Shown: one piece after another, positions 16,057-18,194 of the stretch | Numbering within the stretch: the stretch's first letter is position 1 | Layout: every line of letters begins with the position of its first letter | Assembly (NCBI RefSeq): GCF_005116675.2 | Contig: NZ_CP050699.1 | Location: forward strand, 124,001 to 188,000 | Direction: 5' to 3' | Origin: Desulfosediminicola ganghwensis | Lineage (GTDB): Bacteria > Desulfobacterota > Desulfobulbia > Desulfobulbales > Desulfocapsaceae | Length of the DNA: 64,000 nt | The notes under the pieces: generated by a model | What the model was told of the DNA's origin: nothing | The model's input: the letters and a program-made list of their open reading frames with translations, nothing else | The model's database searches: none | Position numbers and translations under genes: made by a program

Positions 16057-16621
16057 AGCTTTTTTCCTGCATCTGAATCGTCAGTTCCTTCGAAAGAAAT
16101 AAATCCGGTGGAAATTACGGCGACATAAAACCAAACTGGCCAGAGTAAAATCAAATTCAAACAACTCGATTCGCACTCCTACCCTATTTATCTCTGACCC
16201 TTATTCAGCTGTCAGACAGAATAACTGCAGCAAAGCCATTTCATGGCATGGCTTTAGCAACGACTGACATGATCAAAAACCATGGAACTTGTCAATGCGG
16301 ACTAAGGGTTATCATAGTTGGCTCTGCAGTGAAGACATATGGTTGTCATGCCTATGGCAGCATGAGGCAGGTGTTCTCAGGTAGGATTGTTGATTCTTGG
16401 ACAGTACCAAGCGCCCAAATTCACACCAATATCCACACCGAACTCATCCCCCCATTGCACAATCAAACTCAGTACCAGGTCCAACTTTACCCAATTGACA
16501 CATCATCAGTTCATCCCTAGCCTCTAACAAGAGCCAACTGCAGCCGAATATCTGCACTTACGTTTTACGCACCACTGTCGACTGCATCCTGTTTCACAAA
16601 GCCAATAAAGAGGAGGTACAT
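16057..16621. other. Intergenic upstream of the selenocysteine peroxiredoxin
   Basis: The 90-codon open frame at 16248-16520 has no ribosome binding site and an unlikely composition. No RNA gene or repeat is evident. The peroxiredoxin promoter is expected in the last 100 bases. Confidence 0.45.
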
Positions 16622-17101
16622 ATGAAAAAGCTAGCTCTTGGACTACTTGCAATTGCACTTTTTGTTGGATTTTCAACTGCTACCATCAAAGCAGCAGACA
16701 TTGGCGATACGGCTGCCGATTTTACCGCACAGTCCACCATGGGGGAGATAACCCTTTCCGGGTTTGCCGGAAAAAATGTGGTACTCGCCTTTTACTACGT
16801 AGCGTTTACCCCCGTCTGAAGCAATGAACTTCTTGCTTTCCAGCGTGATCTGGAACAATTCACCTCACTGAACAGCGTTATAGTGGGAGTCAGTCCCGAC
16901 AGCCTTGAAGATCTGGAACGTTTCAAAGATGAGAACAACATAGGTTTTGCCATGATCAGCGACCCTGACAAAACGGTTCAACGGATGTATGAATCAGGCC
17001 GCGTCACCTATGTAATCGATGCTCAAGGTATCATTCGCCATCGCCAGGAAGGAGTGCCTGACAACCAAAAAATATTGGAGGCGTTGCGATCCCTTCAATA
17101 A
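16622..17101 (+). CDS. Periplasmic selenocysteine-containing peroxiredoxin (AhpC/TSA, BCP-like)
   Basis: The frame begins after a GAGGAGG site with a signal peptide (residues 1 to about 25, ending TIKAA). It runs through DIGDTAADFTAQS to FYYVAFTPV, then TGA at 16817-16819, then SNELLAFQRDLEQF to ISDPDKTVQRMY and VTYVIDAQGII. In peroxiredoxins the motif is TPVCxNEL, so the TGA sits exactly at the peroxidatic cysteine (residue 66). Everything after it is in frame, conserved and complete (159 residues). A stem-loop just downstream fits a bacterial SECIS. The protein would reduce peroxides outside the cytoplasm. Thioredoxin reductase follows. The alternative, a nonsense mutation at precisely this codon, is much less likely. 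Confidence 0.85.
16838..16855 (+). promoter_or_regulatory. Candidate bacterial SECIS hairpin
   Basis: TTCCAG-CGTGAT-CTGGAA forms a perfect 6-bp stem with a 6-base apical loop containing G and U. The loop begins about 24 bases after the UGA, within the spacing known for bacterial SECIS elements read by SelB. An AAGCAA/TTGCTT pairing just 3' of the UGA competes with or supplements it. Confidence 0.6.
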
Positions 17102-17252: not shown

Positions 17253-18194
17253 ATGGCAGAATTTATCCATAAGACCCTTATCGTGGGGTCAGGCCCCGCT
17301 GGGTACACAGCGGCCATCTACGCCTCCAGGGCAAACCTGAAACCGGTACTCTTTACCGGTCGTGAGCCGGGCGGGCAGCTGATCACCACCACCGAGGTTG
17401 AAAATTTCCCCGGTTACCCGCAGGGAACTGATGGGGCAACGATGATGGAAGATTTTCGCATGCAGGCAGAGCGTTTTGGCACCGAAGTCATCTACTCCTC
17501 CATCACCAGAGTTGATCTTGCCACCGGTCAAGGCTACCACTCAATCTGGACGGAAAGTGATGAAGAGTATCACACTCATACCGTGATCATTGCCACCGGG
17601 GCCGGGGCTAACTATCTGGGACTGGAGTCTGAACAGCGATTAATAAGCAAAGGAGTCAGTGCCTGTGCTGTATGTGACGGTTTTTTCTTCAAGAACCTGG
17701 TGGTGGGTGTGGTCGGTGGTGGAGATACTGCCTGTGAAGATGCCACCTATCTCGCTAAACTCTGCCCGACAGTGCACCTCTTTGTTCGCCGGGATGAACT
17801 GAGGGCTTCAAAAATCATGCAGCAACGGCTGTTTGCCACCGAAAACGTGCACATTCACTGGAACACGGAGGTCGAGGAAGTGCTCGGCCATAACGCCGTC
17901 ACCGGGGTACGGCTAATCAACAACAGGACCAATCATACTTCGGTGATGGAACTCGCCGGCCTGTTCGTAGCCATTGGCCACACACCAAGAACCGAGCTGT
18001 TCAAGGCATACCTGCAAACAGATGACACCGGATATATCATCACCCAGCCAGGGACATCCCGAACCGATGTGGCAGGTGTCTTTGCCTGCGGTGATGCCAT
18101 GGACAGAGTCTACCGTCAGGCGGTTACCGCCGCAGGAACCGGCTGCTGCGCCGCCCTTGATGCCGAACGCTATCTGGTAAGGAATAATCTCTGA
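17253..18194 (+). CDS. trxB: Thioredoxin-disulfide reductase
   Basis: The 313 residues carry the FAD motif GSGPAGYTAAIYASRA, the redox-active CAVC (C138/C141), the NADPH motif VVGGGDTACEDA and the terminal FAD motif GVFACGDAMD. All are standard for low-molecular-weight TrxB, which reduces thioredoxin (or a related redoxin) with NADPH in the cytoplasm. CAGGAG precedes the ATG. It lies 150 bases after the selenocysteine peroxiredoxin, on the same strand, which suggests a shared peroxide/thiol defence role. Confidence 0.93.
   Translation: MAEFIHKTLIVGSGPAGYTAAIYASRANLKPVLFTGREPGGQLITTTEVENFPGYPQGTDGATMMEDFRMQAERFGTEVIYSSITRVDLATGQGYHSIWTESDEEYHTHTVIIATGAGANYLGLESEQRLISKGVSACAVCDGFFFKNLVVGVVGGGDTACEDATYLAKLCPTVHLFVRRDELRASKIMQQRLFATENVHIHWNTEVEEVLGHNAVTGVRLINNRTNHTSVMELAGLFVAIGHTPRTELFKAYLQTDDTGYIITQPGTSRTDVAGVFACGDAMDRVYRQAVTAAGTGCCAALDAERYLVRNNL

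Follow-up and report, generated by a model that had tools for sequence, protein, structure and literature searches.

A peroxiredoxin gene with an in-frame UGA in Desulfosediminicola ganghwensis: a probable exported selenoprotein whose mature form lacks cysteine and the usual active-site proline

The frame at positions 16622-17101 of the window (the whole 64,000-nucleotide stretch of Desulfosediminicola ganghwensis DNA analyzed here) probably encodes an exported peroxiredoxin selenoprotein, a reading to which we assign a probability of about 0.85. According to this reading, SelB would decode UGA66 with the guidance of a hairpin, and Sec66 would act as a peroxidase that is resolved by an outside thiol. 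The selenocysteine is most likely the sole reactive residue of an exported peroxide-destroying enzyme. Support comes from comparison, namely from the conserved UGA, the selenocysteine machinery apart from selA, the peroxiredoxin fold, the active-site Thr and Arg, and the absence of Cys. The features in the window are as follows:

16611-16616, + strand: Shine-Dalgarno-like AGGAGG preceding the ATG at 16622 (from the sequence)
16622-17101, + strand, TAA included: predicted gene of an exported peroxiredoxin selenoprotein (frame, domain match, relatives)
16622-16693, + strand: predicted signal peptide, residues 1-24 (hydropathy; low pLDDT at residues 1-20; cleavage by eye)
16817-16819, + strand: UGA codon 66 at the peroxidatic position, probably read as selenocysteine (UGA in 28/28 family members)
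16838-16855, + strand: SECIS-like hairpin with a 6-bp stem and the 6-base loop CGUGAU (sequence; stem codon uniformity; folding)
17253-18194, + strand: thioredoxin reductase gene (TIGR01292 above cut-off; 151 bases downstream)

The peroxiredoxin frame ends in a TAA stop and contains a single in-frame TGA, codon 66 in the context AFTPV-U-SNELLAFQRDLE; read through, it yields a product of 159 residues with U66. The earlier note had reported an in-frame UGA at the peroxidatic position and an intact, conserved half behind it, and we can confirm both. The frame is otherwise clean, and the read-through protein matches the AhpC-TSA domain (PF00578) across residues 27-140 (E=2.9e-29) as well as the Redoxin domain (PF08534, 9e-16). 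In a sequence search, the nearest sequences with a solved structure were Bcp-type peroxiredoxins; residue 66 stands opposite Cys in two of the three alignments listed and opposite Ser in the third (3drn). Scans for promoters and terminators found no more than in shuffled sequence, and Rfam at gathering scores gave no match in the window.

The UGA is kept throughout a family of relatives, which come from several groups of bacteria living in sediments. A search of 97 genomes (its own and those of relatives) returned the gene itself and five homologues with 45-49% identity, each with one TGA, after which identity falls to 42% and less. A class-level profile built from these six sequences found 11 among 257 genomes at 175 bits or more, 11/11 with one TGA, and a next match at 84 bits. 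A phylum-level profile built from 19 sequences found nine among 395 genomes at 186 bits or more, again with one TGA each (9/9); the next match, at 107 bits, belonged to a group in which UGA and Cys peroxiredoxins are mixed. Both profiles had C at the peroxidatic position and so put Cys forms at no disadvantage. When contigs of GTDB r220 were scanned, 21 loci emerged. Eighteen of them (L074-L091) are close relatives, all 18 with UGA at the site and with record titles that include Desulfofustis, Desulfobulbaceae, Desulfobacula, Desulfuromonas, Geobacteraceae and Nitrospirota, while the remaining three (L092-L094; two with Cys, one with UGA) are more distant and were placed outside the family at 36-39% identity.

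Duplicate entries for a locus or sequence (L024, L074, L101, L102, L103, L136, L095-L099 and other copies) were left out before counting, and no alignment was obtained for L039. This left 28 distinct family members with UGA at the site in 28/28. All 19 members in alignment A3 match the PF00578 AhpC-TSA/Redoxin domain. In a tree of 75 rows, the 28 members group together with weak support (81/84); the 47 outside rows are loci gathered along the way in the searches, not every match. The presence of UGA at codon 66 is far beyond chance, because the same residue is encoded by UGA in 27 further distinct relatives.

These counts bear on whether a Cys peroxiredoxin is decaying here and the TGA stems from a nonsense mutation or from a sequencing error. 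The distribution is patchy, since the class-level profile search had no hit at E<=1e-20 in any of the three further genomes of the genus, and this, like the selA gene that was not found (see below), would suit such decay. However, UGA occupies the same codon in independent assemblies of 28/28 distinct members, the downstream half is conserved, and a search for other stops or frameshifts at the site, which the earlier note had taken as the sign of decay, found none among the 28 members read. Decay or error is thus very improbable. The earlier note had set decay against an alternation of Cys and Sec; within the family there is no such alternation, as no Cys form was found among the 28 members.

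UGA peroxiredoxins of the phylum also occur outside the family (L144, L145, L149, L150, L152, L154-L156, L158, L160, L161), and all of these except L149 keep the active-site Pro. In another subfamily, an Acidobacteria locus (L093) has UGA at the residue aligned to U66 and its sister row (L094) has Cys, which points to a recent Cys/Sec switch there. Among 72,556 plasmid records, 318 match the protein, all below 60% identity; the best of the matches listed is a Bcp at 37%.

We searched the genome (5.65 Mb, one contig) for the selenocysteine decoding machinery. The earlier note had made its case contingent on selA, selB, selC and selD; selB (384.7 bits), tRNA-Sec (75.4 bits, UCA anticodon) and two selD genes are present, whereas searches with two models failed to find selA. 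Each of the two selD genes (L017 and L018, outside the window) contains a single in-frame TGA of its own, which makes SelD probably a selenoprotein as well, in both copies. As for selA, 51 of the 58 genomes searched have a match, 49 of them above the cut-off, and the gene adjoins an rRNA operon in 4/4 relatives examined (L063, L064, L065, L066). Its conserved neighbour is found in the genome, and the stretch from this neighbour to a 5S rRNA, the expected syntenic place, is partly N in the sequence searched. Because that place reads N, the missing selA is evidence neither for nor against selenocysteine; we set it aside as a refutation and infer that selA is present at the masked place beside the rRNA operon. 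Such a location may also be the reason why contigs break and sequence is masked at selA. SepSecS, a substitute for selA, has no match in the genome; across the 58 genomes, it gave partial matches in three, two of them above the cut-off.

The earlier note had also described a 6-bp stem with a 6-base loop about 24 bases after the UGA. Its stem pairs exactly, with TTCCAG (16838-16843) and CTGGAA (16850-16855) on either side of the loop CGTGAT (16844-16849). The 24 bases refer to the start of the loop, and the stem begins 18 bases from the UGA. Taken alone, the hairpin is not remarkable, with z values of -1.42 and -0.68 against dinucleotide shuffles and -0.80 against synonymous recodings. Codon usage in the stem is more telling. 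In the members with FQRDLE at this place, the codons of the stem residues Phe73, Gln74, Leu77 and Glu78 are each identical in 13 of 14, while those of the loop residues Arg75 and Asp76 vary. Equal uniformity is found at only one of 27 other invariant residues, Val65, directly before the UGA (4/4 versus 1/27; Fisher p ~2e-4, calculated by hand and ignoring the kinship of the members). In addition, the 51 bases after the UGA fold better than synonymous recodings across the 28 members (mean z -1.23; -0.54 to 0.21 for six other stretches of the gene).

Members that lack FQRDLE require different hairpins. For two drawn structures, the number of paired cells in the 28 rows was as high in 43 and 11 of 500 shuffles, counts that are not independent because the members are related. 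Two-sided changes at paired positions are no more frequent than in shuffles, and RNAalifold predicted no pairs and no consensus structure for the 28 rows. The hairpin as a putative SECIS element is supported by codon uniformity and folding energy. A guanosine in a small apical loop is a feature of bacterial SECIS elements, as stated in the available part of PMC1088965, and the loop CGUGAU shares it.

The UGA-keeping relatives, the presence of selB, tRNA-Sec and selD, and the codon constraint on the hairpin together support the reading as selenocysteine proposed earlier. That UGA is read as some other amino acid, or that readthrough is incidental and a short N-terminal piece is the product, is highly improbable. 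Apart from the selA gene not found at its partly masked place, nothing positive favours this, and the selenocysteine machinery, the synonymous constraint on the hairpin and the conservation of the entire C-terminal half all argue against it.

We next turn to the protein with U66 as selenocysteine. Its AlphaFold2 model has a mean pLDDT of 88.5, lowest (54) at residues 1-20, and aligns with structures of Bcp, AhpE and PrxQ (Z 21 to 24, 1.1 to 1.9 A; structure comparison, including Foldseek). No Cys follows residue 24 in any of the 28 members. The mature protein would be a 1-Sec enzyme, because it lacks Cys. Thr or Ser at position -3 and the active-site Arg are kept in 28/28 members. The Pro at -7 of the peroxiredoxin motif PxxxTxxC/U is replaced in all 28, by Phe (15), Tyr (12) or Ile (1), while the outside rows have Pro in 46 of 47 and Ala in one. 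The GTDB r220 scan is biased at this position because one of its two patterns required Phe or Tyr; the class- and phylum-level profile searches had no filter at -7, though the profiles favour Phe/Tyr there. Bcp/PrxQ and AhpE peroxiredoxins as a rule have the active-site Pro. It is a residue of the motif, not of the fold, and we count its loss as a variant feature.

The absence of this near-universal Pro makes peroxidase activity less certain. Together with the missing resolving Cys, it would fit a selenocysteine thiol oxidoreductase or redox sensor instead of a peroxidase, but the retained Thr or Ser at -3 and Arg, and the lack of any UxxC or CxxU motif, make this unlikely. The family also offers a natural test of the role of the active-site Pro, whose loss coincides with the fixation of Sec.

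Regarding export, the N-terminus carries two Lys and a hydrophobic stretch (mean hydropathy 2.96), followed by what appears by eye to be a cleavage site between IKA and AD. A crude hydropathy rule calls a signal peptide in 25 of 28 members and misses L084, L089 and L143; for L084, the script placed the start too far downstream. Thus the signal peptide asserted in the earlier note is plausible, and export is a prediction made from the sequence alone. A true selenoprotein could also be cytoplasmic or simply anchored to the membrane and served by the adjacent thioredoxin reductase, the gene of which begins 151 bases downstream. The use of a hydropathy rule and of the eye in calling the signal peptide leaves some room for this. 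However, Lys or Arg precedes the hydrophobic N-terminus in 25/28 members, and the reductase does not accompany the gene elsewhere: inspection by eye of the ORFs listed around the gene at 18 other loci showed none, and the reductase orthologues in two other genomes (G015, G002) have no copy of the gene within 1.5 kb on either side. A non-exported product is accordingly unlikely. We rejected the thioredoxin reductase as a conserved partner on the same grounds; it is a possible but unproven partner in this genome.

Other neighbours differ between loci. The gene lies downstream of cydAB in L081, L083 and L090, and upstream of a SOUL heme-protein gene in L078, L080, L084 and L085. Genes of amine-oxidase-type FAD proteins are near it in L076, L087 and L091, DUF1295 and DUF2177 in L076 (with look-alikes by eye in L087), a lipocalin in L082 and a photolyase-related protein in L080. 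Such neighbours may hint at stress caused by oxygen or light at the membrane.

For the exported peroxidase that we favour, the following mechanism can be proposed. Judging by sequence comparison, SelB and Sec-tRNA-Sec would decode UGA66, guided by the hairpin whose stem starts 18 bases downstream, and a Sec-type signal peptide would direct the product to export. Sec66, helped by Thr63 and Arg127, would then attack H2O2 or organic hydroperoxides and form a selenenic acid. Because the mature protein has no Cys, a thiol or redoxin from outside would have to resolve it. Should the protein be exported, one would have to ask which reductant serves a selenenic acid outside an anaerobe's cytoplasm. 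Taking the family as a whole, we can tentatively picture a peroxiredoxin branch with fixed Sec, exported, free of Cys and without the active-site Pro. It might form a line of periplasmic Sec peroxidases across Desulfobacterota and Nitrospirota that needs a reductant in the periplasm and shields the membranes of anaerobes exposed to oxygen or light, which we consider possible but somewhat doubtful.

Gene callers end a frame at UGA, and selenoproteins therefore easily escape annotation. With UGA throughout the subfamily and no Cys form found, annotations probably show its proteins in pieces or cut short. A case of this kind is described in the available part of PMC5109826, where the annotation of Desulfococcus multivorans splits a Sec peroxiredoxin into two genes. 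In NCBIfam, the window protein stays below the cut-off of every model, with 47.3 bits against a cut-off of 270 for the PrxU model NF040737; for the other 18 members, matching families were recorded without regard to cut-offs. Our literature search, which covered titles and abstracts and few subscription journals, found no exported, Cys-free Sec peroxiredoxin, and the main text of PMC8318568, as far as it was available, does not mention peroxiredoxins.

Sec peroxiredoxins as such are known. The excerpted text of PMC13188914 lists one (Prx, PF00578, TxxU) as experimentally verified, after Sohling et al. 2001, in Eubacterium acidaminophilum. The protein described here agrees with it in the Prx domain, in Sec at the peroxidatic position and in the TxxU motif; it differs in its signal peptide, in having no Cys after residue 24 and in the replaced Pro at -7, a separation made by description and not by sequence. 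Excerpts of PMC1794560, PMC5109826 and PMC1914089 report Sec peroxiredoxins in sulfate and metal reducers. These are likewise UGA peroxiredoxins from the same broad bacterial group and, known from their descriptions, may belong to the branch; the same may be true of some of the Prx, 12 in number, counted among bacterial selenoproteins in the available part of PMC1794560. Bcp/PrxQ and AhpE 1-Cys peroxiredoxins (5enu, 3drn, 1xvw) share the fold and the active-site Thr and Arg, but they are Cys enzymes with about 30% identity to our protein. The kind of protein is therefore already known, and what appears to be new, with published Sec peroxiredoxins compared by description only, is the predicted export signal, the absence of Cys and the loss of the Pro.
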